A stretch of DNA of 64,000 nt, from assembly GCA_034440615.1 (NCBI GenBank), contig JAOTOM010003965.1, positions 124,001 through 188,000 on the forward strand. The letters run 5' to 3'. Of the stretch, positions 7,161 to 37,600 are shown in pieces. Each line of letters opens with the position of its first letter. The stretch's first letter is position 1. Origin of the DNA: Ashinkailepas kermadecensis (Eukaryota > Arthropoda > Thecostraca > Neolepadidae). Position numbers and translations under genes: made by a program. The notes beneath the pieces were generated by a model. That model ran no database searches. It was not told the origin of the DNA and saw nothing but the letters and a program-made list of their open reading frames with translations.

Positions 7161-7164
7161 AGCT

Positions 7165-8960: not shown

Positions 8961-9359
8961 CAAAATGGGTTCATATAGACTATTTTATAGGGGATACAAG
9001 ACTTGGGCCCATTTTGATGCTTTAAAACATTTCTCTACCGACATTTTACACTATAATCAAGCATCACCTTGCCAAATGAACAAAAACGCGATTTTTCACC
9101 TGCAACTTTTTTCACATGGTCCAGTTAACGCTTGGAATCGACTGATCTCATGAAGTTATGAGATCATGCAATATGATCAAATGCATGTATTGGAACACAC
9201 TTGATAATTTTCGTTCCAATAATCTCCAATTGAATTGTCAAACATGCGTTCCGAAGTCAAGCTATTATCTGGCCTGACGTGCCACTTTGTCAGTGACTTC
9301 TAGCGCGGCACAATAATTTTCCTTGGATAATGAATCTTCTCGGGCTACCGACTACCTTC

Positions 9360-10190: not shown

Positions 10191-10511
10191 ACCGGAATGA
10201 TAGGGCGAGTTAACGAAATCGGTCAATTTGTTGTGAAGATACAGCAAAAAGACGGGGAGAGAGTGGAAGAATCGGCCAGCACCTCCTGACAGATTACGCT
10301 TCTGTGACTGCCGTGCAATGGGGCCTAGAAGAACAATGGGCATTGGCGCAGCTCTAAGTCTGGTATGTTTTGTGTAGCATTAACATTCGATGTCATGCAA
10401 TGATTGACATTAAAAGCAATGCGTTATATCACCAGCCCCGATAATATTTTTTCGAGAAACCATTTCTGGATCAGTAAAGCATAGCACCTACAATATCACA
10501 TTTCGACTTAC

Positions 10512-10617
10512 ATCATATGCTTTAATCGAGTCGTCTTCTTGAACCACATAGTAGTATGTCGTTCTCGTCCCTGACCTCGAAATCTGTACAGGTTTGACAG
10601 GCTGCCGTACAGGAAAT
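10512..10617 (-). CDS. A2M: A2M exon 16: putative bait-region exon
   Basis: Thirty-five codons after a split Lys: FPVRQPVKPVQISRSGTRTT then YYYVVQEDDSIKAYD. Strong acceptor (CTTTTTCAG) and donor (GTAAGT), and the phase matches exon 15. Bait regions are not conserved, so function is inferred from position. Several basic residues (VRQ, VKP, SRS, TRT) would offer trypsin-like cleavage sites. It is the last A2M exon I can find; none follows down to base 1. Confidence 0.7.
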
Positions 10618-13600
10618 CTGAAAAAGTAATGGTAGCCATGACAGGATGATCTGCACGCACAGGTTACAACGTTTGGGGTGCGCATACCGCACGTGTGCAA
10701 CTTACTAAGTACGGAACGTAATCAAATGGAAGTATCACATTTCAGGGAGCCACACAAGCTATAGTATTAAGTAGCAAGAGGGTTTATATATAATGCGATG
10801 AGTGGAAATACTGTGGGGATGCAACACAAGCACAGACGCACGAGACACATCCAGAGGATGGGCGGGGCAGGTGGCTGCGATGGGCTGGACAATGCGGTGT
10901 TGGGGTGAAGTGGGATGGGGTCAGAGACGCATGAGACACATCCAGAGGGTAGGTGGGGCAGGTGGCTGCGATGGGGTGGACAATGCGGTGTTGAAATGAA
11001 GTGGGATTGGGTCAGAGACGCATGAGATACATCCAGAGGATAGGCGGGGCAGGTGGTTGCGACGAGGTGGACAATGCGGTGTTGAAATGAAGTGGGATTG
11101 GGTCAGAGACGCATGAGATACATCCAGAGGATAGGCGGGGCAGGTGGTTGCGACGAGGTGGACAATGCGGTGTTGAAATGAAGTGAGATGGGGTCAGAGA
11201 CGCATGAGACACATCCAGAGGGTGGACGGGGAAGGTGGCTGCGATGAGGTGGACAATGCGGCGTTGAAATGAAGTGAGATGGGGTCAGAGACGCATGAGA
11301 CACATCCAGAGGGTGGACGGGGAAGGTGGCTGCGATGAGGTGGACAATGCGGTGTTGGGGTGAAGTGGGATGGGGTCAGAGTTCAGCCGAGTTAGGTTGT
11401 TCCATTTGATTCACTTACTCTAGCAACCATACATGCACAAGCTAAACGCCAATTACCATGGACTTCATTCATTCGTATAACGCGCGCTGTGCGGCCTGTG
11501 AGCAGAACGATGAACACAAGAAAACAAACTGAGAGCCTCTGCAATAGCGGCCATCATTCACCACATAAACACTGCTATGGAGCATATACACAATAAAACA
11601 GACACAACCCAGCAGTCTGGGGTGGATCGAGGAGCCTAGCTGGGGGAGGGGGGGGCGAGTGAACAATAGTCTCCGATTTCGGAAAGGTCATCAGATTTTA
11701 ATGGCTAACATTCCTCGGGTCTGTTTAGGATGATATTTATGTCATAAAATGTTCCTAAATTATGAGGAAGTGCAAAATATCGAGGGATAAAAATCGGCCT
11801 CTTGGGAAATGAGGCCGATTTGGCCCCCTGAATCCGATAATGACAGCAGAGACAGTTTGGATTCGTGGAGGATATCAAAGACCGGATATGGCCCTTAAAA
11901 GTGTGCTGGGTGCGGGGGATAAGAGGAAAAGGCATGATAACAAGTTGCTGATTCTGGAAGCAATATCACTAAAGCATCTGTTGTCCGGGTTTGTCGCAAT
12001 GCTATTCGAAGATGGAGGCTTCTGACTAGCAGGGGGCTCTCTATATTACCCCCTGGAATGTCGTGCAAAATAAAAGACCCGGGACTGGTCGTTGTTTAGA
12101 TCGTTTTGCACCTTTGCAGGCACTACATGGCTGGTGGCCGTGTTGCCCCTTTGCAGGCACTACATGGCTGGTGGCCGTTGGCCATGCCAATTATATCCCG
12201 CCAGGTTCCTACATACATAAAGTGCAAAAATTCATGCTCGACGCTCTTTGAGGCTAGCAGATGGATATCAGTCACCATGGACGAAACGGGAAAGAACATA
12301 TCTAAGATGAATCGGAACACCGGAACAGCAACGAAGCAACCTTCCGCTTTGGAACGTGAACGGGTTAGCTAAGTTGTGGTGTTTAAGCAACTTAGAGTAC
12401 GCAAAGCATGGCTAACACAGTCAAAGAGGGAAATCTGCCAAGCGGCATGGCTTAGCTCGGCCCACGTTTCTAACTTGGTTACTACCTACCAACCATGGGT
12501 GGGGCCAGGACGGAGGAAACGTCCCGACAAACTTCGTGAAATTAGCATCACACTTATGGTGTACGGATAACATAATCTAAAACTCTTTCGTCTCCCAATC
12601 ACAAATCTGTGGGAATGTCCATGCTATCAACCAACGAACATGCCGCCACAATAGACACATGTAAATGTCTGCTATTGCATGACTCCATCACGTACTGATT
12701 GCTCAGTCTCACTATGAGACTCTACAAATACATTAAACACGTGGTATTGGCTTCAGGAACCGTTTGAGCTCACAATTTTACATCTCGCATGCAAACGTTC
12801 TATCCCAGGTAGACGTGATGACTTAACAAGTGGAGGACACCGACCACCGAGCGAACATAGTGGCGGCATGGAATTGAAATAGTGGCGGCATTGAGGTTTA
12901 CCGACTTCATCGTCATTGCTGGTACAGATGACTGGTGATGAATCCCTTCCCTGTCTCCCATACAATGCACACCACTACATTCAAGTCCACCTACTTTGGA
13001 AGCTGGGGCTGAAGTAGGCGTTCAAAACCACCAACTACGTCCGATACACCCGGACCAGAGAAGATAGGTGACGTGAACTGAGGGAGTTGAGGCGCGGATA
13101 CGACCGGCCGGCGTTTGCAGTATTTGCTGGGACTCTCGATGAGGTATGGGTATGTGCCCTCGCCGATGATGTATCTGCGCAGTTTCTCGAACACCCTGGA
13201 CGCCGTCAGCTTGTTGGCCGAACTGAGCAGCTCCACGCTCCGGTCCACCGCCGCTGCGGCAGGTGGGGTTCAACCAGCGGGCCGGGACATAGTCGGCTGA
13301 CTAGAGTACAGTACGGCACCATAGCCTGGCTGAGACACAGTACGGTACCATAACCTGACTGGGGTACAGTTCACACGAATGTGTTACAGCCACTCGACCG
13401 GAGCATAGCACGGCACCATAACCTGATCGGGACACATTCACCTGACCAGGACATTGTACGGTACCATAACCCGATCGGGGCATATTCACCTGACCGGGGT
13501 ATAGCACGGTACCATAACCTGACCGAGGCACAGTCACCTGGCCAGGACACAACCACGTGGATGGGAGATAGTCGACGATCTGGTGCATTGCAGTCATCTG

Positions 13601-16600
13601 TCTGGCGTACAATAATCTGACTAAGGTCAGACTAAACAGCTCACTGGAGGAGGGGGGGATTGTGGAAAATCGAAAGTTTAACATGGACACATTCGACCGA
13701 AAAGAACGGGATGCACGGCATTCAACGACCTCTGGAACAGAATTAACGTCAATACAACAAAGTTAGAAGTGAACATGGACCACAAATAGACACGGAGACA
13801 GAGCGTGGCACGTGCTGGCGGCGTGGGTGTTTATACTGCGCCGCAGCAGCGCTCAAACGACTTGCTCGACCCACTTACAGATACCACAGAGCGAGTTGGG
13901 CGCTCCTTCGACGCTGAAGGTGGCACTCTCGCCCGGCTGCACCTGTTTCCGGTCCCACGACACGCTGACCTGAAGGCAGGCCACGTGGTCACCGACACTG
14001 CCAGTGTCACCGGGCCGGGAGACACAACGCGACTGACCGAGCGACAGGTAGATCGTGGGGGCAAGCTCTCGTGCGCCAACACCAAAGTCGGACAGAGCGC
14101 CAAGCTACCCCGCTCTAAGTGCATCAGACAGAGCGTCAAGCTGCCACACTCTATGTACGTCGGACCGAGCGTCAAGCTACCCCGCTCTATGTACGTCGGA
14201 CAGAGCATCAAGCTGCCTCAATCTAAGTACATCAGACAGAGCGCCAAGCTACCCCGCTCTAAGTACGTCGGACAGAGCATCAAGCTGCCCCAATCTAAGT
14301 ACATCAGACAGAGCATCAAGCTACCCCGCTCTATGTACGTCGGACAGAGCATCAAGCTGCCCCAATCTAAGTACATCAGATAGAGCGCTAATCTACCCCG
14401 CTCTAAGTAGCTGCACTGCTTCGCTGTCTGAATGCGTGAACACTTTTGCTTCATCGTGTGCATTTCGCACTGCCCCTCCCTTCTTCTGCAAGACAAAACC
14501 GTGGTTTCATTTGACGGGACCGAATTGACGTCAACTTGTGTAGCCTCACATTTCTCCGAGTGCGTCCTCGAGTGTGGCACGTACCGTGTTCTGAAAGCAC
14601 TCAGCCACTTCAAACGTCCTCGAGTCCGTCACCACCTCGCCAAGCCGGTTCACGTGGTAGATGAGCACCTTGAAGCGCGGCGACACCTCGAACCTCAACT
14701 TGACGTTGATCACCCCAGATGCGTAACCCTGTGTCACAATTTGTCCTCGAGCCATGACCTGAAATGGTAAGATGTCCGGTTTCTGAATTCGCCAGGTCTT
14801 GAATGTCGAAACGATAATGTTGGCCGGAAGAAATAATTCGATGAATCGAAATGTCATCCAGCCTACGAACCGCTTGCAGCTTGCAGCCCAACGTTTTGCA
14901 TCTAACGATTTGCAACGCTTCACGCAACGCTTAGGATCCTGCATCGCTTATAAATCTGCAACGCTTAGTATCTAAAGTGTTAATCGGTGCGATTTTCTGA
15001 ACATCATATCCGACCACGTGACATCCGGCAGCATATATACAGCCGTTACCAGTGTGAATATTTGAATCGAAAACAAAAAGCAGTCCTTTTAGTTAACCTT
15101 TACTGCTCGCTGCTAAACCATATTCATATGTTAAGGTGATCAGCGCGCTTCCCTGCGCTCGTGGCCACAGCATGTATGCATCCAGGATTCGACCACGAAC
15201 AGATAAATGATGCCATGTTAGAGCACCACTTGGTCTGACAACTTTATCACCGGATAAAGATAAGTCCAGTTAGACTGCCATTACCGGGGTCAATTGGAGG
15301 GCAAAAACACCATAGGTTCTGTCAGCTTCTCGAGAGTGCAATACTGACGAACGAAAGCTATTCCCAAGGGATGTAAGGCACATTTATTTTAATCGGAGGA
15401 TAAAGACAAAATATCTTTGCTCTGCTTGCCACGAACTTCTACTGTCCGAGGCTCACATCCCACAAATTGATAAATAGTGTACGGAACACCACAACACTGC
15501 AACTCCCACCGATTCATGGAGGTGAGGCAGCCCTCCGCCACTTTTTCCAGCCGGCTCCAAGTCGAGGAATTTATACGAAGTTTCTAACGGTTGTTTTGCA
15601 ATAGTTATACACTTCCTCTCAAACCATATAATTTCTTTCAAACCAGATAACAACGCTATAGATGAACTGTCAAAATCTTATCTGGATTTGACTGGCGCAA
15701 AATGAAATAATATGTTGGAAAAAATTGCATTTGTCGGTCCCTTGGGGATTTGGGTGGAATCAAATGACTGAACGTTATGGTGTGTCATTTGCTATATTGG
15801 AGAACGAAAATATAAAGATTGGGGAATTTGGATGATAAAATGACGTTGGTGAGGACAAAATCGATCAAGATCTCAACTTCCGTCATGCTATCAACGTTTT
15901 ATGATGGATCCCCAAACAGACGGTTCTATACATGGGTTGTGTTTGCTTTTATTTGTGCTTTGGCACGCGAAACTTCCCCGTGAAGTACTTTGCTTCAGGC
16001 GCCCGTAGCTGCGTGGTTAAGCTGAGCGTCTGGCACGCCAGTGGTGCGGGGTTCGATTCTGGCACGCCAGTGGTGCGGGGTTCGTCTGGCACGCCAGTGG
16101 TGCGGGGTTCGTCTGGCACGCCAGTGGTGCGGGGTTAGATTCCCCCCGGTCCCCCCTTTCCCCCCAGGGGGAGAGGAGGGGAGCGTCTGGCACGCCAGTG
16201 GTGTGGGGTTCGATTCCCCGCGGTACCCCCCCCCCCCTTCCTGCCAGGGCGAGAGGAAGGTGAGAGGCACCATACAATCAGCTGCTGAGTGCGTCGTAAA
16301 GCCACAATAAATCAAATACTTTTCTTCTGATTTTACGGGGACGTCACGTTATTTCACGTAGGTATCAAATTAGCATACTCTAGCTACTGAAGAGTTTACA
16401 CTACTCAGAGGCAGAGGGCTGCGGAGGACAGCCGGGGGCCCGCCTCCCCCAACAAAAGAAAATCGGAATCGGTGCCATGATTTCTTTGGGGAGGGGATCA
16501 GCCATCGTTAAGAAAATCTTGGCCACGCTCTTCTCCATAGGTGTACAAGACAGGGGCAGGAGCGCTGCTCCTCCCCACTCAGTTCGCGACCGAAAGATTG

Positions 16601-19600
16601 CATTGTTTTCGAACAAGCATCGTGAACTGGGATCACGTGTGTGATGACGCTATTTTATAAATTGCTTGGTCTGGCTAGTGGCTATGCGCCACCACTGCCG
16701 CAGCTGGCTGATATTGCTCCATATTGTGGCCTGCGTCGTTTTTCTTCCACATACTCACCAATGGGATAATTTTCCAGAACGTTTTCAACATGTGATGCAG
16801 CTTACAGCAATTCAAAGATATTCCCATTTTTGCTTCTTGAAACAATTCGTGTACTTAATATATATTTTTATCTTGGTTCAATGTATATTTTTCTGCAATT
16901 CAGCAATCCTTTGAAGCATCTCTAGCTATTTTGTTGGTAGCAGGGGCAGATACGGGTGGAATCTAGAGGCATGTGCCACCCCCCCCCCCATGGGAAGATG
17001 ACGCCCCTCCGGTCATGAAAAGACGCCACTCTGGGAAGGCTCTAGTGCATCCCCTCGAATTAAGTAGCCAGTGGCGCCATTTTGAGAGGAAAAGGCGTCC
17101 CTTAGAAGAAAAGGCGCCCCTCCGAGAAGTGTCGAGTGCAGCCATCCTCCTGGAACTTTTCAGCCGAAGACATCCTTCAGAATAGGCTCCAGTGCCTCCC
17201 CCTCCCCCATTCGCATATTTGTTCAGCCAGAGGCGCCCCTCAGAAGGTAAAGCCGCTCGGGGCCCCTCCGGACATGTGCCCCCATGACAATTATTGGATC
17301 CGCCCCTGGTTGGGAACTATTGCCAGCAATACGTTTGAACCAGCATGACATTCGTTTGCAGCTCTTTCAAGCTGTCGGCAACAACTCAACGTAAGACCAA
17401 ACTCAGACAAGATGGAAAATCGCGAGTACTGATCGTTGTCTGAAAAACCGGTCGTTTTTTCGCATCCCTCTAAAATATGAGTTCTTAAAATACTTTGAAG
17501 TTATCTTGAATATCTTTCAAAGAATGCACCTGCTTCAAGTGATTTGCTTTACCGGCCAACATCAGAAAGCAAACCAGCTACCGTCGTGTCCGAAGGAAAC
17601 AGAGCTACGTTAAATATTTATGTTTTCTCTGGCACCTGAGGCCTCGAAACCTACGTGTGTCACAATCCATACGCTCTGTGTCGTGGAAGGCGGAGAAGTG
17701 CCGAGTGCTGGAGGGAGACTGTGTGTGCACTTCTATCTCAGATATGATCAAGTTCTTTGCAGAATGTAAACCATAATACGCCGGCACATGGTTTGGACTG
17801 GCAGTGCGCGCGGGACAGTAATAGAACGCACGTGAACCAGATACTTACAAGATACGCAGTGTCATCGTTGCTTGAGCGGAAGTTTTTCTTGATGGACAAG
17901 CTGAGCGAGCCGGTGCATTTGAGGCCTGACGGGTCCACCAGCGGCTCGAGCACTATGTAGGAGTTGGTGGGTGAGAACCACACTCGGAGAGACTTGTACC
18001 CACGTGAGATGCCGACCGATCTGAACCGACTCGAACTGCTGGGTCGTGATGGAGTTGTCGGCCCCAGCTGAAGAGAACCGTCCAGTGTTCTTCAGTTTAC
18101 CATTCCAGGAGGCGATCCGCCCTGATCGCCTGATCAGGACGACACTGGTACACTGATCAGATCAGAGTGTGGTAAACAGTGATCAGATCAGAGTGTGGTA
18201 AATAGTGATCAGATCAGAGTGTGGTAAACAGTGATCAGATCAGTGTGGTAAACATCGGCCGCTCAACTGGATGCTCAGGTGGCTGGCCCAACTGCATCCC
18301 CATGAGTCTAATGGGTAACCCAAAGCATGGTTTGGATCTGAGTTAACCGATATCAGGACGACATCCGCTCGGACGGCTGGTGCACATGAGATAATAAGGA
18401 ATCAGCCATTAAGGATTCAGCCATACTTCTCCCCCTTCAACACACACGCGAACATGCCATAATAAATTCCACCTTGAAACATGGCTGCAAAGTTCGGACA
18501 GACAAATACAAATATTGTATCAATGGGAGAGCAAACCACATGGGCAAGCATGGACTGACAGAAAGACGGAAACATGTTTCAGCAAATAATGTGGATCATT
18601 TACCGATATCCTGACGCTGAGCAGGCCTGGGTCGAGGGCGGGGATGAAATATTTAACGCGTCCGTCCTCGTTCGTTCTGTATTCCCGGCACAGTCTGGAA
18701 CTCTGGGTGTTGCGCGGCGCCGGCACTGGCACAATGATGGGCAGGGAGTTGTAGCTTTGACGAGATAAGCTCACACTGCGGGCACGCCCACAAAGAGTCA
18801 GAGTCACGCGCTGAGAGACAGAGTCATATTCACACGTGAGACAGAGTCGGGCACACGTTGAGAGACGATGTCACATTCGCAATTTGGGATTCAGCGTCAC
18901 ACGTTGTGAGACAGAGTCGGAAAACACGTTGAGAGACGTTGTCTCAGTCACGCGTTGAGAGGCAGCGGCACATTTTGACAATGGAGAACCAAGTCCTGGA
19001 AGGATCCAAGACTTCAACGAGCCGTTGGCTCACTCCATTCTCTTTTTGCTATGCGATGTGCATTTTACTGCAAGCATTTGTGCCGCAACGTAAGCCGTGG
19101 TGCAATCTGAGTATTGAGCATGTGCAACATTTGAGCAAAAGGCCGTGTTCTATTGGCTGTACCGTGGTGGTAGAAGTGACCAACATCAGCCCTTTCCACT
19201 TTCCGTGACTTCGACCATAATTCGCAGCAGAACAGCTGCATCACACTGTGTACCGCATAATCGCATGGACGCATGTACGCATGTACGCGTATATATATAT
19301 ATACACATTCCTTGCATATTTCTCAACTTTGTCTTCAACAGCTTAGGAAATTTTAAAGGAAATACAATCACCAGAATAATATATTTATAATGTGGATGAC
19401 GGAAATATCATTCCATACGGCGTGTGCTGCTTCATTGTAGTGTTACCGGTGAGTGAGTTGAACGATTAGTTTACTTGCAAAGCCCATACAATTTTAGTGC
19501 TACACACACAACTGCAATACCGACTTCGGAACTCACATTATATTTTGAGAAACGGCCTGCTATTTGCACAACTTTCAGCCGCTAGTTACGACGGTGAGCG

Positions 19601-22600
19601 CATCCAAGGTGACACAGGTGCGTGACGGGCGGTATTGTACACGGCGTGTCCATGGATACCCTCAGCTGATTATTACACTTCGGGGTGCAGTCAGATGGTG
19701 AACAATAAAAAAAGAAGCCATTTACAGTTGTATCAGCCAAAGAAGTATATAATGTGACCTGCTATTCCGCTCTGCTTAGCGGGAACATGAAGACCGACTT
19801 TCTCTGGATGACATAAAGCCGAACCTGAAAACGGAGCGGAGGGTCGCAACGGTGCAACGACCAGGACAGCAGAGGAGAGGACGATGTCATTGCATTGGGG
19901 CCGGATTAACGGGGAGCCAGCTGTGGTGAAGCTCAAGATGAAGTTCACGAAGAGACCAGTTTTAATTAAAAATTCCAGAGCTCTTCCTTCAAATCCATTT
20001 ACTCACACACTTCCGTGAGAACAACCGGAAACAGCGCTCTCTGATGAATCCAATGCACACAGGTAGCAACTACACAAGACAGCTGCTTCCACCGTAGTAT
20101 ACCTGCGCTGTGCATCGATGTTCTCGCGTCCATCCCTGACACTGATATTTTCTGCTCTCTCAATTCGACATACAAAGATGCTTCACGCCAGTTTGATGGC
20201 AGAGTTGGAATATTGTAGAGCTGCTCGAACATTCCGCTTGATGATGTGCGTGCGCTTGTGTGGGTGCGATTTATTATTTTATTATATCACCGATCGTATT
20301 TAAGCTGGAATTGAAGAAATAATTATCGGCGGACAACGCTTCATTGCTGCCTCTTTTAAGAATTGACTTCGTCTGTAGCCACAACTATAATCCATTGACA
20401 ACAGGATCAACACATACAAACAATAATAAATATATAGTGTTTTGGAGCCGACGTGTCGGTCGTGGTTGGTCGAAGAGCACTGCAAAGAGCGTTGTGTCCA
20501 CGACTGAGCCACACGTGCGCGGGCGGACAAGGTGAGCGGCCGTGGTTGTAGTGCGTGCTGGGTGGTCCAGACTCCACTTACCCGGCCCCCGTGTGTTTCT
20601 TGATCGGGCCGCTGCCGCCGCCCCTGGAGGTAGCAGTGTAGCACATCTCCACCAGTTCGCCTTCCAACACCTGGCTGTCCTCGTCTCGGAGCGTGGCCTG
20701 CCCACAACAGAGTGGTACACAGGTGATCGCTAGAGTACACCCATATCCTATACCACACCAGCTGCTACCCTAGTCTCGGGGTGTGGCCTGCCCACAACGG
20801 GGTGGTACACCGGTGATCGCTAGAGCACACCCATATCCTATACCACACCAGCTGCTACCCTAGTCTCGGGGCGTGGCCTGCCCACGACAGAGTGGTGCAC
20901 CGGTGATCGCTAGAGCACACCCATATCCTATACCACACCAGCTGCTACCCTAGTCTCGGGGCGTGGCCTGCCCACGACAGAGTGGTGCACCGGTGATCGC
21001 TAGAGCACACCCATATCCTATACCACACCAGCTGCTACCCTAGTCTCGGGGCGTGGCCTGCCCACGACAGAGTGGTGCACCGGTGATCGCTAGAGCACAC
21101 CCATATCCTATACCACACCAGCTGCTACCCTAGTCTCGGGGCGTGGCCTGCCCACGACAGAGTGGTGCACCGGTGATCGCTAGAGCACACCCATATCCTA
21201 TACCACACCAGCTGCTACCCTAGTCCCGGAGCGTGGCCTGCCCACGACAGAGTGGTGCACCGGTGATCGCTAGAGCACACCCATATCCTATACCACACCA
21301 GCTGCTACCCTAGTCTCGGGGCGTGGCCTGCCCACGACAGAGTGGTACACCGGTGATCGCTAGAGCACACCCATATCCTATACCACACCAGCTGCTACCC
21401 TAGTCTCGGGGCGTGGCCTGCCCACGACAGAGTGGTGCACCGGTGATCGCTAGAGCACACCCATATCCTATACCACACCAGCTGCTACCCTAGTCCCGGA
21501 GCGTGGCCTGCCCACGACAGAGTGGTGCACCGGTGATCGCTAGAGCACACCCATATCCTATACCACACCAGCTGCTACCCTAGTCTCGGGGCGTGGCCTG
21601 CCCACGAGAGTGGTACATGAGAGCACCAGATCAAACTTGAGAGATACTTACATAGCCCGTGTACGACAGGCCGGGCTTGACAAAGTTGGAGTCGAACCTG
21701 TCGATAGTGATGGTGCGGCGGCGTCTCTTGACGGGCAGCGTCAAACTCTCTGTCTGCACCAGGCCCGTGCCGCTCTCGGTGACGTTGGTTGAGACGGACA
21801 CCTGCCGGCGTCACGACCCGGCACGCGACCCGTCACACGACCCACAACACCACCCACAACACCACCCATAACAGGACCCGTCGCACGACCCGTCACAGGA
21901 CTCACAGCACGACCCGTCACACGACCCATAACACCACCCATAACAGGACCCGTCACAGGACTCATAGCACGACCCGTCACACGACCCATAACACGACCCA
22001 TAACATGACCCGTCACACGACCCATAACACCACCCACAACACCACCCATAACAGGACCCGTCACACGACCCGTCACAGGACTCACAGCACGACCCGTCAC
22101 ACGACCCATAACACCACCCACAACACCACCCATAACATGACCCGTCACATGACTCATAGCACGACCCGTCACACGACCCACAACACCACCCATAACAGGA
22201 CCCGTCACACGACCCGTCACGGGACCATAACACGACCCGTCACACGACCCATAACACTACCCACAACACCACCCATAACAGGACCCGTCACAGGACTCAC
22301 AGCACGACCCGTCACACGACCCATAACACCACCCACAATACCACCCATAACAGGACCCGTCACACGACCCGTCACGGGACCCATAACACGACCCATAACA
22401 GGACCCGTCACACGACCCGTCACGGGACTCATAGCACGACCCGTCACACGACCCGCCACAGGACCCGTCACAGAAATTGTCCTCCGCCGCCACCACATGC
22501 AGTCGATCACAGCCCCAGCATCGGACAACACGTGGGATCATGTCCAGCGTCCGTCACTGAGACGTGTGGAGACCGACACATCCTCTTGAGAAGAGCCACC

Positions 22601-25600
22601 CCGGTGCGTGTGCTGGGGGGGGGGCTGACCCCCACAACCAGCAGCCGCAGGTGGCCCAAGGTCGGCGGTCAGTGCTCACCCGGTATGCGTTCAGCGACGA
22701 CTTCGAGCCCAGACCGATTTTGGAGAGGATGAAGTCGATCTCGACACAGCCGTCCGGTCCCGTCTGAAAGGTGTCGGCGGCGGCGTTAGGCGAGGCGGCG
22801 CGCCAGGTGTGGCCACCAGTGGCGCGCGTGACGCCCGATCACGGCCGTGTTCACTGACCAATCCCGGCAGGCGAGTACGGACACGCCCCCGCCAATCCCG
22901 ACAGCTGGAGGCCAGCGTACGTCCCCAGTGGGCGTGCCTGCATGTGAGAAGTGCAGCACGCAGCGCCAGCTAAAACGTTATCTCTGAATTCGAGGTCCAG
23001 ATCAGTCTAGATTTAGAATCCACGAGGAGTGGTGGGAAAATACAGAGACTGGTCGCTGCCCTACAACTCCTCCCTTACCATGACATGGTTCGATTGGGTA
23101 GCAGTGGTTTTGAAAGGTTGATGACCGAGAAACAGGCGATCTTTCTGCCATGCAACTCAATTTAATATAGCATATACCAATGCGGCTTTACTGTTTTCAA
23201 TACCAGTCGAATGGCTATAGGCGGCCACATTATGGTACGGCCAGCAATCCCTACCACAATCGACTTCTCAATGTCTGAGCATAGTATTTCACGAGGGGTA
23301 CTGTTGCGCCACTGCTTTGCCCAGACATTTAGTTCCTGATTAAGAACGAAATAAATAGTAAACATCGTGCCGCAGTGCCGATGCAATGTATAATGCCTCT
23401 ATTTCAAAGCTGTCCATATGGAGTTTGTAAATAGACCTGGGCTGGTATTAATTGATCACACGTGGAAAATCATCCATTGGTGACATTCAAGGTCGGCTCA
23501 ATGGTTGATACGCCATGAAGATCGGCTGGTGGTAATCGCATGTCACTCACCCTACGCAACGAACAGAAAATGGTGAAATGAATATCGCATTGTATGCAAT
23601 ATTTATTTTAATATATCCACACTATATCCAATCAGCAATCAGATGAGGCTCGCTCATCGAATGCAACCGCATACATTGATCAACTGCCAGGTGTCAAGTA
23701 AAGCCGCATATAGTGCCCGAAATAGACAGATGGGATTAGTAGCATTCCCAAGTATCCCAATTGGATTCCTGCAGGGTACCAACATTTGCGGAACGAAGTA
23801 CGACGTAGATTGGTAGGTGGATTAGATATGAAGGCGCGGCGGCCACCTGGTGGGCGTATCGACGCGCGCTGCACACGTCATCAGTCCGGGGAGCGGGCTG
23901 ATGGCTGTACCTTGCCAGTCTGAGAGGCGGTCTGCAGCTAGCTTCTCAGTCTGATAGATGTACCTTATCGGCCAGAGGAACGTACCTCATCAATCTATGG
24001 GGCATACAGCATCAGCCAGAGGAGCGTATCTCATCAGTCAGAGGACGTAGCTTCTCCATCTGATGGATGAACCTTATCATCCCGTGGGAGGTACTGTACT
24101 TCATCAGTCTATGGGACATACCTCGTCAGTCAGAGGGAATCATGTCATCGGTCGGAGAGATGTACCTCGTCAGTCAAAGTGACGTTTTGGCGAGCATTCC
24201 TACGGATGGTGGGCGGATGTCGTCGCAGTTCTCTGCTGATTTGGTAGTAGCTGAGCGAGGAGGTCACTCGAATCTTGACCAGCGCCGATGTTAGCGGCTT
24301 GCCAAAGGTGTAGCTGTGGCAGACTCACATCAGGTCAGACTAAGGGTTACATCAGGTCAGCTGCTCATCACATCAGGTCAGCTGCTCATCATATCAGGTC
24401 AGCGCCAGGTCACAGCAGGTCAGCTGCGTATTACATCAGTTGAGCTTCGAGGTCATCTCAGGTCGGCGTCAGGTCGCGCCGGATCGCTATCCAGATCAAT
24501 GCTAAACAGGGGTAGAGTTGGAGTATGATCAGATGGAGATAGCATGAGCATGGCCGATGTGAATGTAGCTGGTCGTACCACATTAAGTACATATACTTGA
24601 AACTACCAAAAATAGCAAAAGTGTGTCAATCAATATTTACTCCAATTGAAGCATGCAGGTTTCGATACTACGATGCTTTGCCATGAAACTGCACATCAAA
24701 TTGCCACCAATGGGGCATGAGCCTGTCCAACTGCTTCCTCAATAGCCAGCATCTAAGTCTCTCCAATAGCGTTGCAGTACAGCACGGTATCGTCGACAGC
24801 AGTAACCTCAGCCAGCTCCACTCACAGCGCGCAGACTTTAAAGGTGACCGTGTTGGCGCCGCGCACGATGAACTTGGGTCCCGTGACTGTGACCTCGAAC
24901 CGAGGCAGCACGAACTCGGCCACCTCGAAATTCTGGCGCACGATCCGGTCGCCACGCTTTACTTGGATGGTCCAGATACCCTAGGAGACGGAGGGACGGT
25001 CAGTGGAACGACAGCGGTACAGACCGCCACAGAAGGAGACGGCAGTTTCACGTGGATGGCCCAGATGTCCTACGAGTCGCCACAAAGGGAGACGGCGGCT
25101 TACTAGCAACCCCGGACCTTCGGCACATAAACCAATACATGGTCCCGCCTGGTAAAACACATTAAGTTTTATGTTCACAAGACCAGAACATGATGTCTAT
25201 ATACGATTGAACAAAATGAAAAACACGCGACATATTGCATCGTGTAAGAACAGCTGAAGTGCCTGGGCAATACTGAAGAAAACGGGAGGAAGCTGTAGTT
25301 TTTTTCCTTGGTAAGTATCAACGCATTTCATAGCGGGGTCTGTTTGTCGGCGTCCATTGGACGATCGCTACAATACCCATCACAGACGGGTCGTCCACCA
25401 TACAGTAGAGGGAACAGCCAACACATGCGGCTGGTCTATCGGACACCAGTGGCAACACCCGGCGGCAAAGGTGGCCGTCCATCGGACACCAGTGGCAGCA
25501 CCCGGCAAAGGTGGCCGTCCATCGGACACCAGTGGCAACACCCGGCAAAGGTGGCCGTCCATCGGACACCAGTGGCAACACCCGGCAAAGGTGCCCGTCC

Positions 25601-28600
25601 ATCGGACACCAGTGGCAACACCCGGCAAAGGTGACCGCCCATCGGACACCAGTGCCAACACCCGGCAAAGGTGACCGTCCATCGGACACCAGTGGCAACA
25701 CCCGGCAAAGGTGACCGCCCATCGGAGGCGTGCAGACACAACTCATCAGAAGCTGCGGCTCGCCCGCTGGATAACGGAGAGAATGCGCACGACGGGCAGG
25801 TCTTTCCTGCGACACTGCAGCGGTCACTCACTCACCAGAGGTGGCTCATCGGTCAGCTGGAACTTGAGCTGCACGATGCCCGACGTGGTGCGCACTTTGT
25901 CGAACTGCGCCAACCGCGTGTTGGCTGGTGTTGTGATAAAGATCTGGTCAATCTGTGGATCATGGTCAGACTGGTGTCAGCTGACGCAGCCGACGCTAGG
26001 TATGCCCAGATTCCCACAGTCGGCACGTCCCAATAGCGCCTATTCCAGAGTGAAAGAACAATGCAGGTACGACTGGGAGTGCGCGATGTTACGTTCGGAT
26101 GGCGACAGCGCGACCACTTCCAGCTCAGAGAAGACGCACCAGTCTTCTCATACTCAGCGCCTGTCCTAGCAGGTATCTGACCACCTCCTCTGCGAAAGCT
26201 CCACCGGACTCCTCACCGTCTCCTCCAAAACTGTGCCATTGGTCTCCTCACGGTCTCCTCGATAGCCGCACCATTGGTCTCTTCGCCGTCTCCTCTAAAG
26301 TTGTGCCATCGGACTGCCCAGTGCCCACGGTCTCCTCCATAGCTGTACCATTGGCCTCTTCACCGTCTCCTCTAGAGCTGTGCCATCGGACTGCCCATCG
26401 TCTCCTCCATAGCTGTACCATTGGCCTCCTCACCGTCTCCTCTAAAGCTGTAAGGTCTGACCGCAGAGTGACCACTCGGAAGTTCACCAGCTGACCGGCC
26501 TTGTACTTGAACTTGTCTGTTTGCACGAGCGTCACCAGCTCGAACGGCCGCACGCTGACCTGAGGACGGCATCACAAAGCGTCACCAGAGCCACCTGGAC
26601 GGCCACGTCACCGAGTGGCAAGCCACTTAGTCATTACATATAACTGAAACACCAGACACACAGCCATCATCGCAAAAGTACCGAAGGGCCCTACCATCCT
26701 CATCCCTACCAGCCCCATCAATAATTGCAATTATTGCAATAATTGGTGAGTGAACTCAGCCAGTCGGTAGAAGAAACATAGAACAAATGTTCTTTCTTCG
26801 ATTGAATAATGTATTAACAATCACTTGTCGGAGAAGAATAAAAAAGTATGGAAGCTCTAGACCGTGCTAGCTTTTCGGATGGATGTTCATGGGCAATCGC
26901 ATAAGATTAGTGGTGAATTTCGAACAAATGTACTCAGTACTTATAACCGACAAAGGGGAAGGGTCCGATAGTGGTGATCAGAAGTGTTGAGAAAATGCTG
27001 ACACGGAAGGTAATGTGAATGGTTGCGCAATATGGTGCAGCGTGACGAAACAAAACCACTGATCTCAGTGTATTGCTCATTTCGTTAATATTTCGGACTA
27101 TGCAGAATTAAAATGAACCATCTGACTACTTGGCGAGCACATGGCTTAACGCAATTCGGCATGGAGAACCAACCATCAACGATAATCAAAATCCCTTTTA
27201 AAATAACCGAAATAAAATCCTCAATCCCACACATAATGCGTCCACATGAGCTTTTCTTTCACATACATTTTCCCGTTGTGACAATGGTAAAGCGATGTAC
27301 ATATGCATTATGAATGAGCACGCAAACGCTGTTTTTCTCTTGCGGCCTTCATGTCACATCGTGCATGAGGTTCTCTTACTTTGTCCGGTGGGGTAAATAG
27401 TGAATGGTCAAAAGGCGCGTGTTGCCGCACACGCTTCAGTTCCTTGTCAATATCAGTTGTGCGGCGTGATCAGGACGTTCATGTGACACATACGCCCTTC
27501 TTCACTTGTCACGGGCACTAAATCACGCTGACTGTGACAAAAGCTGGCACATATGCTGCTCAAAATGCTTGATTTCCCACCGTGGTCCCATGGGTGTGGG
27601 TAGTGTGTTGCCCTTGGCATTGCAGGTAGTGCATGGACATACATTACTATGAAAACAAATTATAATTTAGTCTTGTGGATGAAAGGACATACCAGTGTTC
27701 CCCAAGCGCGTGCCTACGGAAAAGGGAAGCATCAAAATGTCTGGTTACAGCTACTTAATTCGATGATCTTTTTTCGATAGGAATACACTACAGGAACAGT
27801 GGGAAAACAACTTGAAAGGAAGTTCATTTTCAGGTATGCATAGGTAATATTTCATGAAAAAATAGCACGCTTAAATTCACCTTTGACAGGGTCGTCTTCT
27901 CCAAACATGTTATTGAACAAGATAACACAACAACATCGATAATGTTGCGGAGAGCTGTACTGAGCATTGTTAAATTAAAGATGATGATGAAAAGTAACTA
28001 AATGTTCATATTAATTGATAATATAACCACAAAATATGTCACACCATTGTGTGATCCTATTTTCAATCAATACAAGCATTTCGGTACTTTTCATAATAAT
28101 CTAAACAATATCGGGTGACATTTCCAGGTATTTTCATAGCCTCAATTCATGGAAGTAGGTATTAGATAAGCATCCATAAGAACACAGATGGTAAGAAGTG
28201 CATGTAAGCATTTTCGGCTTCCTTTTTGCAGCTATCTCGATCTTTCAGTATACTAATAGCAAAAGCATAGAGCCGTAATGCAACACAAGCGTCTTCTTGC
28301 CTCATACCATCGGTACCTAACCATAAAAAGAAAAATAAACACGGATGTGGCTGATGCTCGTTTCTAGACGACTCTTTAAGCTACATAATGGTATAGGCAA
28401 CCTGGCATATGAGGAAAGATTGAAGAAATTGAATATGTTTTCACTTAGATATAGAAGGCTGAGAGGAGATCTCATCGAGGTTTTTAAATTTGTTCATGGT
28501 CAGGAACAGGGATATCTCAGGGAAATGTTTGAATTTAACAGAAATGATGCAATTAGAGGTCATCAATTCAAAATTAAAGTTAATCACAGCAGGACAAGGT

Positions 28601-31600
28601 TAAGCAGTCTTTCTTCACCAACAGGGTAGTAGAACACTGGAACCAGCTGCCAGGAACCATTGTCAGTAACAACACACTGAACATCTTTAAAAACGGCATA
28701 AACAATCATTATAAGAATAGGGGGTTTGTTTTTCTGTATTCCAGGGAGGGTTGATCGACAGGGAGGAGTTGGGAGTTGAGAGGAGTTTGAAATTGTTGAG
28801 TGTGTTATGCAATAGCAAGTGAGTCTCTTATTAAGTCTAAACGCTTTATAACTTTATATAGGGTGTACCTAGCAGTGGATTCAGCACCTTCCTTCGGGAT
28901 GTGATACTGATGAGATTGTCTATGGTAGCACAATGGGTATGATGGGAGGAGTTTGTAATTGTTGAGTGTATTATGCAATAGCAAGTGAGTCTCTTATTAA
29001 GTCTGAACGCTTTATGAATTTGTGCGGGGTGTGCCTAGCAGTGGATTCGGCACCTTCCTTCGGGATGTGATGCTGATGAGATTGTCTATGGTGGCACGAT
29101 GGGTGTGATGGGAGGAGCTTGTGATTGTTGAGGGTGTTATGCGGTAGCAAGTGAGTGGTGCTAGATAGGCTGGGATATATAGCTTCCTAGGAACTTGGGA
29201 TAAAGGATTGATTGGGGTGGGAGTATGTACATTCCTAGTACCTTTTCTAGATAGGCTTAACCCAGATGGGCCCCTGTGGCTCTTATTAAGCCTTAATACT
29301 TTATGACTTTATGACTTTATAACAAAGGTGAAACGGAGCATGCGTCGCATACCATTTCTGCCACCTTCATAAGAACAAATACGCTTGTTTGCCTTGTGCA
29401 AATGCCGTATCCTCTATGGCTGCTGCAAAGGTTAAAAAAGCTATTTTGAAGATACTTGAAGATATTTGAATATATGGCAGCGGGATCCCCTGGGTGTGGC
29501 CCTGCAAGCACACGTTTCACCATTGGCCCATCAGTGATGGGGATAATGGGCAGCGCAATACCAGCCCGGAGAGCTACCCGCAGCGAACTAGCTGCCCGAG
29601 CTGTCAAAGAAGCACCAGTTAAGCGACCGGTAGCTACCGACTAGCGGGACTACTAGCGGAATGCTGCTTGACTAGCGACTGGTGGCTACCGACTAGCTGG
29701 ACTAATAGCGGGACGCTACTGGACTAGCGACTGGTAATTATCGACTAGAAGGACTATCGACTTGCGAGACTGCTAGCGGGACGCTACTTGAAGTTCGGCG
29801 GCATGCACCGTTAGTCATGTTTCAGCTGAAGTGACGGTTGGATTGTGGATCAGTAGTGTCAATGATGCCGATGAAGTTCTTTCACCGGAATTGGGGAGTG
29901 GGGAGAGTTCACAAGGTGTTCAGACCCAGAATAACAGGTGCAAACCGGAGACCTAATGTTACATTTGCTTCGAACGGGAGCATAGGATCCCTCCCCGAAA
30001 GTCATGGATTTAGCACATGAGAGTGGTGGGGACGGCCAGCTACGGACCGGTGTGTGGCTTATTGCTCCCAGTGCCAGACCCAGTACCAGACCCAGTACCA
30101 GACCCAGTACCAGACCCAGTACCAGACCCAGTACCATTGACCGGTAGGTGACCCACTGTCCCAGTACCACTGACCGGTAGGTGACCCATTGTCTCAGTAC
30201 CACTGACCGGTAGGTGACCCATTGTCCCCGTACCACTGACCAATATGTGACCCATTGTCCCAGTACCACTCACCGGTAGATGAACCATTGTCCCAGTACC
30301 ACTTACCGGTAGGTGACCCACTGTCCCAGTACCACTGACCGGTAGGTGACCCATTGTCCCAGTACCACTGACCAATATGTGACCCATTGTCCCAGTACCA
30401 CTCCCCGGTAGATGAACCATTGTCCCAGTACCACTGATCGGTAGGTGACCCACTGCCCCAGTACCACTGACCGGTAGGTGACCCATTGTCCCAGTACCAC
30501 TGACCGGTAGGTAACCCACTGTCCCAGTACCACTGACCGGTAGGTGACCCATTGTCCCAGTACCACTCACCGGTAGATGAACCATTGTCCCAGTACCACT
30601 AACTGGTAGGTGATCCACTGTCCCAGTACCACTGACCGGCAGGTGACCCATTGTCCCAGTACCACTGACCGGTAGGTGACCCACTGTCCCAGTACCACTG
30701 ACCGGTAGATGACTATTGTCCCAGTACCACTCACCGGTAGATGAACCATTGTCCCAGTACCACTGGCCGGTAGGTGACCCACTGCCCCAGTACCACTGAC
30801 CGGTAGGTGACCCATTGTCCCAGTACCACTGGCCGGTAGGTGACCCACTGCCCCAGTACCACTGACCGGTAGGTGACCCATTGTTCCAGTACCACTGACC
30901 GGTGACGTTTTTGTAGTACGGAAGTGACCGGAAGATACTGTAGCTCGTAGAAACATTCTGCGCTGGGTTACGCTCTTGGGCACGAAGAAATCGAAGCATC
31001 CGTTCGCCAAGGCTGAAACATATGGTCGACATCATCACAAGATGGCATAGAGGTGCCAAACACAACACACATACAAGCATGCACACATACACACACCTAC
31101 ACACACGTGCTGATATATACCCCAGAGCTTCAGCTGATGTGCATTTCCGCAATATACGAGGGTTTGACGAGGGCTGGATGTCAGGCTTTCAACGAACCGC
31201 ATTTTCATGATCGTGCCCACCACCAGAGCCCGCCACCAGAGCCCGCCCCAAGAGCCCGCCACCAAACCCACCACCGGATCCACCACCAGACCAACCACCA
31301 GAGCCCGCCACCAGACCCACCACCAGAGCCCGCCACCACAGCCCACCACCAGAGCCCGCCACCAGAGTCCGCCACCAGAGCCCACCACCGGACCAACCAC
31401 CAGAGCCAGCCACCAGAGCCCGACACCAGAGCCCGTCACCAGAGCCCGCCACCAGAGCCCGTCACCAGACCCACCACCAGAGCCGCCACCAGAGCCCGTC
31501 ACCAGACCCACCACCAGAGCCGCCACCAGAGCCCGTCACCAGACCCACCACCAGAGCCGCCACCAGAGCCCGTCACCAGACCCACCACCAGAGCCGCCAC

Positions 31601-34600
31601 CAGAGCCCGTCACCAGACCCACCACCGGACCAGTCACCAGAGCCCGCCACCAGAGCCCGTCACCAGACCCACCACCAGAGCCGCCACCAGAGCCCGTCAC
31701 CAGAGCCGCCACCAGAGCCGCCACCAGAGCCCGTCACCAGACCCACCACCAGAGCCGCCACCAGAGCCCGTCACCAGACCCACCACCAGAGCCGCCACCA
31801 GAGCCCGTCACCAGACCCACCACCAGAGCCGCCACCAGAGCCCGTCACCAGACCCACCACCAGAGCCGCCACCAGAGCCCGTCACCAGAGCCGCCACCAG
31901 AGCCGCCACCAGAGCCCGTCACCAGACCCACCACCAGAGCCGCCACCAGAGCCCGTCACCAGAGCCCGTCACCAGACCCACCACCAGAGCCGCCACCAGA
32001 GCCCGTCACCAGAGCCGCCACCAGAGCCCGTCACCAGACCCACCACCAGAGCCGCCACCAGAGCCGCCACCAGAGCCCGTCACCAGACCCACCACCAGAG
32101 CCGCCACCAGAGCCCGTCACCAGAGCCGCCACCAGAGCCGCCACCAGAGCCCGTCACCAGACCCACCACCAGAGCCGCCACCAGAGCCCGTCACCAGACC
32201 CACCACCAGACCCACCACCGGAGCCGCCACCAGAGCCCGTCACCAGAGCTGCCACCAGAGCCCGTCACCAGACCCACCACCAGACCCACCACCAGAGCCG
32301 CCACCAGAGCCCGTCACCAGAGCCGCCACCAGAGCCCGTCACCAGACCCACCACCAGAGCCGCCACCAGAGCCCGTCACCAGACCCACCACCAGACCCAC
32401 CACCAGAGCCGCCACCAGAGCCCGTCACCAGAGCTGCCACCAGAGCCGCCACCAGAGCCCGTCACCAGACCCGCCACCAGAGCCCGTCACCAGACCCACC
32501 ACCAGACCCACCACCAGAGCCGCCACCAGAGCCCGTCAGCAGACCCACCACCAGAGCCGCCACCAGAGCCTGTCACCAGACCCACCACCAGAGCCGCCAC
32601 CAGAGCCCGTCACCAGACCCACCACCAGAGCCGCCACCAGAGCCCGTCACCAGACCCACCACCAGAGCCGCCACCAGAGCCCGTCAGCAGACCCACCACC
32701 AGAGCCGCCACCAGAGCCCGTCAGCAGACCCACCACCAGAGCCGCCACCAGAGCCCGTCACCAGACCCACCACCAGAGCTGCCACCAGAGCCCGTCACCA
32801 GACCCACCACCAGACCCACCACCAGAGCCGCCACCAGAGCCCGTCACCAGACCCACCACCAGACCCACCACCAGAGCCGCCACCAGAGCCCGTCACCAGA
32901 CCCACCACCAGAGCCGCCATCGACAGCAGCCTGCTGCTGCACATGTGAGTTACACGTTGGCACCTACACGCTGTGCTGTCGTTGCCGGTAGCATTTGCGA
33001 CTGGTCTTGGTATACACGTGTGGCCTAGGGCTGCGGCTGGCCTTGGTATACACGTGTGGCCTAGGGCTGCGGCTGGTCTTGGTATACACGTGTGGCCCAG
33101 GGCTGCGGCTGGCCTTGGTATACACGTGTGGCCCAGGGCTGCGGCTGGCCTTGGTATACACGTGTGGCCCAGGGCTGCGGCTGGCCTTGGCATACACGGG
33201 TGGCCCAGGGCTGCGGCTGGCCTTGGCATACACGTGTGGCCTAGGGCTGCGGCTGGCCTTGGTATACACGTGTGGCCCAGGGCTACGGCTGGCCTTGGTA
33301 TACACGTGTGGCCCAGGGCTGCGGCTGGCCTTGGCATACACGTGTGGCCCAGGGCTGCGGCTGGCCTTGGCATACACGGGTGGCACAGGGCTGCGGCTGG
33401 CCTTGGTATACACGGGTGGCACAGGGCTGCGGCTGGCCTTGGCATACACGGGTGGCCCAGGGCTGCGGCTGGCCTTGGTATACACGTGTGGCCCAGGGCT
33501 GCGGCTGGCCTTGGCATACACGGGTGGCCCAGGGCTGCGGCTGGCCTTGGTATACACGTGTGGCCCAGGGCTGCGGCTGGCCTTGGCATACACGGGTGGC
33601 ACAGGGCTGCGGCTGGTCTTGGTATACACGTGTGGCCCAGGGCTGCGGCTGGTCTTGGTATACACGTGTGGCCCAGGGCTGCGGCTGGTCTTGGTATACA
33701 CGTGTGGCCCAGGGCTGCGGCTGGCCTTGGTATACACGTGTGGCCCAGGGCTGCGGCTGGCCTTGGCATACACGTGTGGCCCAGGGCTGCGGCTGGCCTT
33801 GGTATACACGTGTGGCCCAGGGCTGCGGCTGGCCTTGGCATACACGGGTGGCCCAGGGCTGCGGCTGGCCTTGGTATACACGTGTGGCCCAGGGCTGCGG
33901 CTGGCCTTGGCATACACGGGTGGCCCAGGGCTGCGGCTGGCCTTGGTATACACGTGTGGCCCAGGGCTGCGGCTGGCCTTGGTATACACGGGTGGCCCAG
34001 GGCTGCGGCTGGCCTTGGCATACACGGGTGGCACAGGGCTGCGGCTGGCCTTGGCATACACGGGTGGCCCAGGGCTGCGGCTGGCCTTGGTATACACGTG
34101 TGGCCCAGGGCTGCGGCTGGCCTTGGTATACACGGGTGGCCCAGGGCTGCGGCTGGCCTTGGCATACACGTGTGGCCCAGGGCTGCGGCTGGCCTTGGTA
34201 TACACGTGTGGCCCAGGGCTGCGGCTGGCCTTGGCATACACGGGTGGCCCAGGGCTGCGGCTGGCCTTGGTATACACGTGTGGCCCAGGGCTGCGGCTGG
34301 CCTTGGTATACACGGGTGGCCCAGGGCTGCGGCTGGCCTTGGCATACACGGGTGGCACAGGGCTGCGGCTCTCATGATGTGAGTTTGCTGATGTCAGTGA
34401 CACAAGCGCGGGAAGGTTGCCATTAGTGGACCTCTGCCCAGTGGTGTCACCAGGGGTCTGGTGTCGAACAATGAGTTGGGGGGGGGGGCTAAAATGCACA
34501 AACTAGATTATGATGTAAAATTGGTAGGGAAAGGGTAGGTGAATTTTGCTTAAGCTATGCATGCCATTGTATTCCTTTCTCGCTACTTTTAAAATATACA

Positions 34601-37600
34601 TACAGGAGTCATCACATTTTTTAAACATAAGTGTTTTCCTCACCATTTTCACACGCCACCGTGACATAGCATGCATGCATTGAAAATAATGCAATATCGA
34701 AATACGCCAACATAAACTATCCAAGAACTGTTTAAAGCTACGGAGAGAGACTGGGAATTGGTGGGGAGGGGGAATTCTGTAGTTAGAGACAACCAACCGG
34801 ACTAGATGGGCTTTTTCGCACTTGTGTATGACAATGTCGAACCCTGCTGCACTCACCGCTGAACGGTGACTTCTTGGCAGTTGAATGTCCGCCGGTGGCC
34901 ACCGCCTGGAAATCTGAGCTGTTGATCTTTGGTAGCAGGAACAACTCCAACGTCACCGAATGTCCCAGGTTGTAATAGGACACGCAGATTCGCTCGGATG
35001 TTCCCGCAAGTAGCACCTTGGGGGCCGACAACAGGAAACCCCTGTCAAGTGAGATCTGAGTCAGAGTCGGAGTCACTTCCGGCGAGGTGCCGGCAGCTAG
35101 CGAGCATTGGGCGAAGGCGCCAGCAGCACACGCAAGAAGCGTCACGAAGGCTCGTGACATCCAAACTCTCGTCCTGGAAATCGGCCCTCGCACCGCACCG
35201 TTGATTGTCAGACAAAGGAAATAGCAGCCCTTTGCGGAGAACACTGCATGGCAAGGAGGCAGGGACGCGTCTCAAGATGTTAGCTATGCGGGCTCGGCCC
35301 CCACAGTCACAGCCCTGACCCCAGCACTTACACCAACATTATCATTGCCTGTGGGGGCCGGAGTCAGCTGGGCGGTGACGATGGCTCCCGCAGTAGTCAA
35401 TGGACACGGCCCCCGGACCAAAAATATCAAAGACGAGTCCCTGCAAGGCGGTGCTGAGGTGCAAAATGAGTTGGAGAAGTAAATATTTTGGGTGAAGTTG
35501 ATTGCAGCATTAAGTTCGGGTTGGAAATGCAAACTTAGTGATGCACATATGATAATGTTTAGTTAATGTCCTTTTAACAATACATTTACGATATTTTCGT
35601 TCTATAAGGTAGTATATGTACATACCACGTCGTGGGATGACCAGGAATATTTGCATATATACATTCACAAAATGCTAAGTGTAACACTAAAATACAGTAA
35701 CCGGGGCGGCATCATCAGGGGGGGGGGGGCACCTCCCCTGCCGTTAGCCATAGGGGTGTGGGACATATGGTTTGGCCCCCTGAAATCTGGAGAGGCTCTT
35801 TCCACAAGGAGCTAAGCAGGCTCAGGAGGCCCCAATACAGGCACGGAGGCTCCTGCACAGGGAACGAGGCGAAGCACGTACTTCAGTGCACGAGGCCCCA
35901 TGGTTTCATAGAGGATGTTCCCACGATGTAAGAGGACCGAAAATGGATTGGAAGGCAGAAGGAAATTATATGAGGCCTATAAGGCCGCACAGGCAGCCCC
36001 TAATATGAAAGAGGAGGTCCCGAAGCTGGTGGATAGGCCGCCAATGAATGAGATGAGGCCCCAAGACCCCAAGACCCACGGAGGCCCCAAGCTTCTAGTA
36101 CGGCATAGGAGGCCTCGGGAAGGCTAGGGAAGGCCTCAAAATCAAATAGAGAGATCTCAGGAAATGAGACGAGGTTCCCAAGGCGGTACAGGATAGGAGA
36201 TAGGAGATAGGGGATCGGTAAGGAGGCACATACATGGCATATGAGATATCCGGGAAACAAGGGGAGCAGCCACCCACACGGACAGAAAGGACCCAGTAGG
36301 GAAGACGAGGTCCCTATGATGGTACAGGAGGCCCTAATATGAACGAGTAGGTCCCGAACCAAAGGGGAGGCCACAAAACCGTCAGGGAAACATCAGGAAA
36401 TGAGACTAGGTCCCTGCCACTCCATAAGACTGTACAGGAGATATTTAGAATGACATAGGAAAACCCTGGTACTCAAGGGGAGGACGCCATGAAATAAAAC
36501 CAGGCCCCTAAGACGGAACGGGAGGCCCCAAATATGAATCGGATAGCCCTGGAACGCAAGGTAAGACCCCAAAGTTGGAAGGAAAGCCCCAAGAAATAAG
36601 ACGATAACTCTCAGACGGTACAGGAGGCTCCTGATATAAAAGAAGAGGCCCCCAGGACTCAAGGGGAGGCCCACAGGACGTAAGAGAGGCCTCCAAGATG
36701 AGGCCGCAGGAAACGAGACGGGACATTTACAAGATGCAGAATGCCCCTAATTTGAAAGAGGACGCCCAAGATGCAATAAGTGTCTATCCTTCCCCCCCCA
36801 GAAAGTGAGAGCTCTTTAAGATCGCATAAGAGGCCCCAATGTGTAAGAGGAGGCACCCAAGGTCGGCAGAGGCCCCAGGAAATCGGACGAGGCGCCTGAT
36901 TCAAGACCCTGAAAAGGAGGCCCACATTAATGCCGACTGTCAATGCAGTCAGCATTTGCAGTTCCGGTGCGCGCGGTAATTCTCTTTTCAGCAACGAATA
37001 GGTACAGTTCTATGAAAGCATGTAGCGCCCTTCAGTAAACGCTCCTCCTGAAACCCACCGGACAATGTGCCAGCCACACCAGAAATACACTCTCTGCACT
37101 CTGTCACACTCCATCACGAGGAAATTGGACCATGTTGCTCAGGTAGCTGCGGTGGTCTGCGTATTTTCACGGCTATCAACAACATTCCGCCATGCTACCA
37201 TGCCACTTCGACACTGCGTACAGTGGCCAAAAAATGTCCACTCATTTTTCATGCAGAGCAGTTTTCGCTAAAGTTGAGTTTGAGAAGTTGAAGTTCTCAT
37301 TACGCTGACCAGCAGTGACGGACCTTTCCATACCTTTGGGGACACTTGTGCCCCCCCCCAGTGTTGCTGAAGCTTAACATGGGATCCATGTGCGTTGACT
37401 GGATGCAATGACATGCAAAAAAAACATTTCTCTCGAATCATTTTGGAAAAGTTCCACCTGTGCTGGCCAGCTTTGGAGAAATCTTCCAACTTCTCTATAG
37501 GCCTCAGAATAATTGGAGGTGAGGTATTATTAACAGGATTAAAAATTCTGCTTTCGCAGCAGTGTAATGTGCATGTAAGGAGGTCAGAAATAACAAATGC

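Follow-up and report, generated by a model that had tools for sequence, protein, structure and literature searches.

Why should tandem repeats in the introns of a single gene begin, time after time, exactly where an exon ends? The question is raised by a stretch of 64,000 nucleotides from the barnacle Ashinkailepas kermadecensis (GenBank assembly GCA_034440615.1, contig JAOTOM010003965.1, positions 124,001 to 188,000 of the forward strand; "the window" below, numbered from its first letter), whose minus strand carries an alpha-2-macroglobulin (A2M) gene with such junction-copying arrays. A first-pass annotation of this DNA had claimed that four arrays copy exon-intron edges of the gene (the donors of exons 3, 4 and 7 and the acceptor of exon 10) and that a two-copy start is visible at the acceptor of exon 6. 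The copying of exon-intron edges into the neighbouring intron is real, and junction-spanning copies are found at all four arrays. We think that the arrays are probably ordinary tandem duplications in which the duplicated unit fell by chance across a splice junction, of the kind known as "mirages", and that they have been tolerated; we would give this reading a probability of roughly 0.74.

The gene must first be placed on the map. Its 5' part, exons X1 to X15, occupies 10512..35160 (minus strand, as are all features of the gene given below), according to the exon map, Pfam domains and protein alignment. Fourteen exons have GT-AG edges and consistent phase (X1 being taken from its ATG only), a fifteenth follows, and the joined 15-exon reading frame has no stop, which argues indirectly that authentic splicing is undisturbed. 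Exon n of the first-pass annotation is our X(n-1), and its interval 20582-31012 runs from the donor edge of X9 to the acceptor edge of X2. The product contains the domains MG2 (PF01835, 3e-14), MG3 (PF17791, 2.7e-11) and bait region (PF07703, 4e-28), and with all three present it belongs to the alpha-2-macroglobulin family. A search for relatives, in which 7997 candidates were scored, gave 10 hits; the best named ones, each with 49% identity over 91% of the query, come from the barnacles Chelonibia testudinaria ("adult cement protein 5") and Amphibalanus amphitrite (an A2M-like protein). With barnacles as the nearest named relatives, amphioxus was rejected as a source of the window.

For each of 28 junctions, 25 exon and 25 intron bases were compared with the adjacent intron (at most 1500 bases), with 30 block shuffles per junction as control and a score of 26 as threshold. 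A tandem unit lying across the exon-intron boundary, which is what makes a mirage, was found at 5 of the 28, on both donor and acceptor sides: the donors of X2, X3 and X6 and the acceptors of X5 and X9, that is, the four arrays and the one two-copy case. All of these alignments include exon bases, from 4 to 23 of them (4 at X2, up to 18 at X3, 17-20 at X6, 19 at X9 and 23 at X5). The other 23 junctions have no junction-spanning copy at this score in the adjacent intron, the X6 acceptor giving a single match that does not span the junction and the remaining 22 no match at all. Shuffled sequences reached the threshold at three junctions (the X3 donor, 27; the X5 acceptor, 27; the X12 acceptor, 32), so that a single weak match, such as the one at X5, is uncertain.

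The array that starts at exon X2 (30900..31012; GT-AG edges, phase and barnacle protein alignment; donor CCG/GTCAGT at its left edge, the slash marking the junction) is a 33-base-pair (bp) minisatellite at 30127..30903, detected both by Tandem Repeats Finder (TRF) and by the copy test, whose exon-side unit holds the donor with 4 exon bases inside. There are 21 junction-spanning matches, and 22 motif copies besides the authentic one, of which 18 keep the GT. At X3 (26434..26559; GT-AG, phase, and closest barnacle proteins gapless across the junction; donor GAGACG/GTGAGG), a minisatellite of about 35 bp (26206..26452; TRF, with period 35 or 70, and copy test) copies the donor with up to 18 exon bases; it gives four spanning matches, the best 41/43, and the GT is kept in 4 of 7 motif copies besides the authentic one. 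The array copying the donor of X6 (24166..24313; GT-AG, phase; GACGAG/GTACAT) is degenerate, with units of 20-30 bp, and was delimited at 23910..24183 partly by TRF, which detects only 24113-24183 (3.2 copies), and partly by the copy test and by related motifs, chosen by eye, that reach about 23916. Its two spanning matches, 29/38 and 28/38, contain 17 and 20 exon bases. On the acceptor side, a 90-bp minisatellite (20679..21614; TRF, copy test and motif) copies the acceptor of X9 (20582..20697; GT-AG, phase; GGGCAG/GCCACG) together with 19 exon bases and nearly fills the 954-bp intron I8. Its 10 copies besides the authentic one were sought with a motif that itself holds the AG, and since the array's 10.4 units are fully accounted for by 11 motifs, none was missed.

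The fifth case is a single diverged copy of the acceptor edge of X5 (24826..24980; GT-AG, phase), found by the copy test at about 25043..25075: 10 intron and 23 exon bases, 26 of 33 identical, with a score of 31, where none of 30 shuffles exceeded 27. The two-copy start is thus borne out, but as the weakest call of the survey and not a certain one; as members of the mirage class, X5, with its one diverged copy, and X2, with only 4 exon bases, are the weakest. Two further arrays lie close to an acceptor, one of 12 bp (21812..22472; TRF) starting 10 bp from that of X8 and one of 21-63 bp (24325..24475; TRF) starting 11 bp from that of X6, and the copy test found no junction-spanning copy in either. 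The coordinates and unit lengths given earlier for the junction-copying arrays agree with TRF and the exon map. Equally correct was the statement that their units are unrelated: the consensuses of the four arrays are no more alike than shuffles in any of the six pairs, on which ground the spread of one repeat family was rejected.

Is this kind of structure new? The first-pass annotation knew of no description of arrays born repeatedly at the splice sites of one gene, yet repeats of this kind are described. According to the portions of these papers available to us, tandem repeats across exon-intron boundaries were named mirages in the Adh3 and globin genes of amphioxus, where they lie on either side of exons, do not visibly disturb splicing and have been proposed to play a part in intron gain (PMC3087553); PGBD5 and troponin C are further cases (PMC3902484). 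As in the barnacle, tandem copies with units of 10-160 bp span donor or acceptor junctions, and the AG or GT signals are present in many copies but not in all (PMC3087553, PMC3902484, same portions); what distinguishes A2M is that four arrays and a two-copy case occur in one gene. Human CBS has a 31-bp repeat, c.1444_1467+7(16_21), present in 16-21 copies (PMC2630376, in part), a notation that we read as 24 exon and 7 intron bases per unit; this variable number tandem repeat has the same layout, with exon and intron bases within the unit, but is one array in one human gene. Human repeats at exon-intron boundaries are also treated in PMC2812944, as far as its available text goes. Splice-site-like sequence is copied as well in intron gain by tandem genomic duplication of AGGT-containing segments (reviewed in PMC3443670, likewise in part); that model, however, makes a new intron from exon sequence, whereas in A2M the copies sit in introns that already exist, and the junctions in question show no change of coding sequence. 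In the open-access literature, judged by titles and the first lines of abstracts, no paper was on barnacle or crustacean mirages, and the available text of a Daphnia tandem-repeat survey contained no match for "splice" or "exon-intron". The kind is therefore already known, and what is added is its occurrence in a barnacle, at five sites of a single gene.

Which came first, the exon end or the array? An intronic array might have grown into the exon, the splice site moving into the array, so that exon ends were built from repeat units; and the outermost unit of each array does contain exon bases. Yet the exon-end residues are common to Chelonibia and Amphibalanus, without gaps: TALEET stands at X3, against TAQEEV and TAQEET in these two, TSPVS at X2, against TSEIR and TSPVN, and GYAT at X9, against GYAT and GFVT, the X6/X7 junction being less alike. 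The two closest barnacle proteins (P0040 and P0041) are gapless at X2/X3, X3/X4, X6/X7 and X8/X9, and so is a solved A2M chain (7s62) across all four array junctions. Since the closest barnacle proteins have no gap there, the protein has gained no repeat unit, and its exons keep their ancestral ends. Two other alignments fit this less well: that with P0042, a more distant barnacle paralogue, is broken by a gap of five residues within the final residues of X2, and that with a scallop protein (P0045) by single-residue gaps close to two of these junctions. The idea that the exon ends derive from repeats is thus largely refuted by the barnacle protein alignment, except at X2, and we see hardly any chance that it is correct. 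To judge from these protein comparisons, exon sequence was copied outward into the introns; X2 is doubtful in this respect, and its array, with four exon bases, may simply end at the exon.

A second alternative is that the copies are kept as alternative splice sites, so that the length of an array tunes the protein or how much of it is made. If an intronic donor were used at X2, blocks of 11 residues would be inserted between MG1 and MG2: 33 bp is a multiple of three, and from the exon the reading frame runs on without a stop for five such units, until one of 32 bp shifts it. Moreover, 4 of the 22 X2 copies read GTGAGT or GTAAGT, which we take from the consensus to be better donors than the authentic GTCAGT, and at X3, where the unit length is not divisible by three, one GT-bearing copy (105 bp in) would preserve the frame and read without a stop. 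Conservation points the other way. In the X2 array the three donor columns free of the search motif are conserved at 0.857, against 0.929 for the other free columns (21 of 22 units, columns fixed by the motif excluded and one out-of-register 32-bp unit omitted). Some copies have decayed: X2 has lost the GT in 4 of its 22 copies, X3 in 3 of 7, and X6 in roughly 4 of the 10 motif matches. All 10 upstream copies at X9 keep their AG, yet this array is nearly uniform (0.984 elsewhere); in all 10, TAG stands in place of the GAG of the exon, and the frame ends in ATPRD and a stop (translated for the first three units). Read-through into the intron at X6 meets a stop after seven codons, and neither P0040 nor P0041 has an inserted block at these junctions. 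We therefore consider it very improbable that the copies are kept as splice sites, and the earlier suggestion that selection keeps exon-edge copies finds no support in the donor conservation, the lost GTs and the X9 stops. Nothing points to selection for the copies, even if the open frame at X2 could in principle give longer proteins.

It is more difficult to decide whether position itself is special. The first-pass annotation had also suggested a break or slippage bias at exon edges, to be checked by comparison with randomised placement. Arrays detected by TRF make up 8409 of the 22336 intron bases of the gene (37.6%), against 60 of 2313 exon bases. The one-sided copy test, applied alike throughout, finds a spanning copy at 987 of 2823 intronic positions (35%; these positions are not independent of one another, and the rate per intron varies from 6% to 94%), at 5 of 28 junctions, and any copy at all in 1 of 322 tests inside exons. 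If a junction behaved as a random base of its intron, 10.0 junction matches would be expected against the 5 seen. This naive null is too permissive, in that it ignores coding constraint and the need of a spanning array for exon bases; the nulls used in its stead, of placement and of seeds, limit the exon overhang.

In the placement nulls, 22 arrays were placed at random (the touching TRF arrays 30067-30136 and 30127-30903 being merged), and the 4 spanned junctions compare with 0.8 to 2.7 expected (p 0.0055 to 0.24). Within their own introns, 2.7 are expected with an overhang of one unit (p 0.24) and 1.8 with 19 bp (p 0.07), p-values that were calculated after dropping trials with unfittable arrays (1008, 1069 and 1153 of 4000 in the own-intron runs); with placement in any intron and an overhang of one unit, 1.8 are expected (p 0.09). 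Other nulls speak against a chance origin, with a nominal excess at junctions. Placement in any intron with at most 19 bp of overhang gives 0.8 expected (p 0.0055), and the seed null, in which each array descends from one duplicated seed, gives 1.08-1.36 (p 0.019-0.040). When junctions with an array within 11 bp are counted too, which adds the X6 and X8 acceptors by a cut-off chosen after the distances had been seen, the 6 junctions compare with 2.9 expected in the own intron (p 0.03) and 1.4 in any intron (p 0.001).

These figures, together with the recurrence of mirages in amphioxus genes, are what favours the third alternative, namely that tandem duplication has mutational hot spots at exon edges, where mirages are born more often than elsewhere in introns, for example through breaks or R-loops at exon-intron transitions, or through repair via AGGT-like short homologies. 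Against it stand the remaining placement nulls, the seed nulls for three arrays without X2 and its 4 exon bases (p 0.089-0.148), the lower frequency of copies at junctions than at intronic positions, the late choice of the 11-bp cut-off, and the fact that all these statistics come from one gene singled out for the pattern itself. Among open frames of at least 75 codons at 35-64 kb, inspected by eye for other genes, only mobile-element-like ones were recognised, which left no second gene as a control. The answer thus depends on the null and on a gene picked for its pattern, and a special preference of arrays for splice junctions is possible but not shown: p is nominally 0.001-0.040 under some nulls and 0.07-0.24 under others. 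We regard a hot spot as rather unlikely. It seems to us distinctly unlikely that, in barnacles as well as in amphioxus, arrays arise preferentially at exon edges, so that mirage formation would be a general mutational process at the splice junctions of animal genomes rich in repeats and would keep supplying alternative splice sites and variants of protein length.

Tolerated chance duplication would work as follows. In a gene with array-rich introns, the unit of a tandem duplication would now and then straddle a junction; an intact exon edge and splice site would be left beside the exon, where splicing presumably continues, and the extra copies would fall within the intron, so that such an event should do about as little harm as a duplication confined to the intron, whereas a duplication inside an exon would be removed by selection. 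Unequal exchange or slippage could later enlarge the arrays, whose copies would then drift neutrally. The order found for the copies, with introns above junctions and junctions above exon interiors, is the one expected if coding constraint is what matters. A repeat type of lancelets, with one human example, is hereby extended to a crustacean, and a single gene shows coding constraint shaping array location, arrays being common in introns, intermediate at junctions and nearly absent within exons. Whether junction-spanning duplication is tolerated or favoured bears on models of intron gain and growth.

Along the window, TRF coverage is uneven: 0.5% in 1-10511, 37.6% in introns 1-14 and 20% in 35161-64000. 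Two large arrays with units of 37 and 36 bp (31216-32919 and 32996-34370) fill most of intron 1, where the copy density is 0.80. Inspection of the window by eye did not reveal the 3' part of the A2M gene, and no other search for it was made. At 1643-6212 there are three tandem copies of one exon of the same gene (VAGYLPLTNLVLE ... FFPPTFLFQL, after the bait region), in direct repeats spaced about 1.0, 3.0 and 4.0 kb; the copy at about 3156-2833 is open and both others have an in-frame stop, so that they are possibly alternative exons or decayed duplicates. Elsewhere, a long interspersed element at 58710-61423 (plus strand) has endonuclease and, by eye, reverse-transcriptase frames, in pieces; its endonuclease piece has 38 relatives, of which all 5 named ones are from Amphibalanus amphitrite and the closer ones are unnamed. 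A 264-codon open frame at 46542-47333 (minus strand) resembles, by its look, a mobile-element or arthropod orphan protein. A stretch at 16000-16280, judged by eye to be like a tRNA-derived short interspersed element, has an internal 27-bp tandem array (16027-16136; TRF), and ARAGORN reports a tRNA-Val (cac) at 53086-53161 (minus strand), perhaps also part of a short interspersed element.

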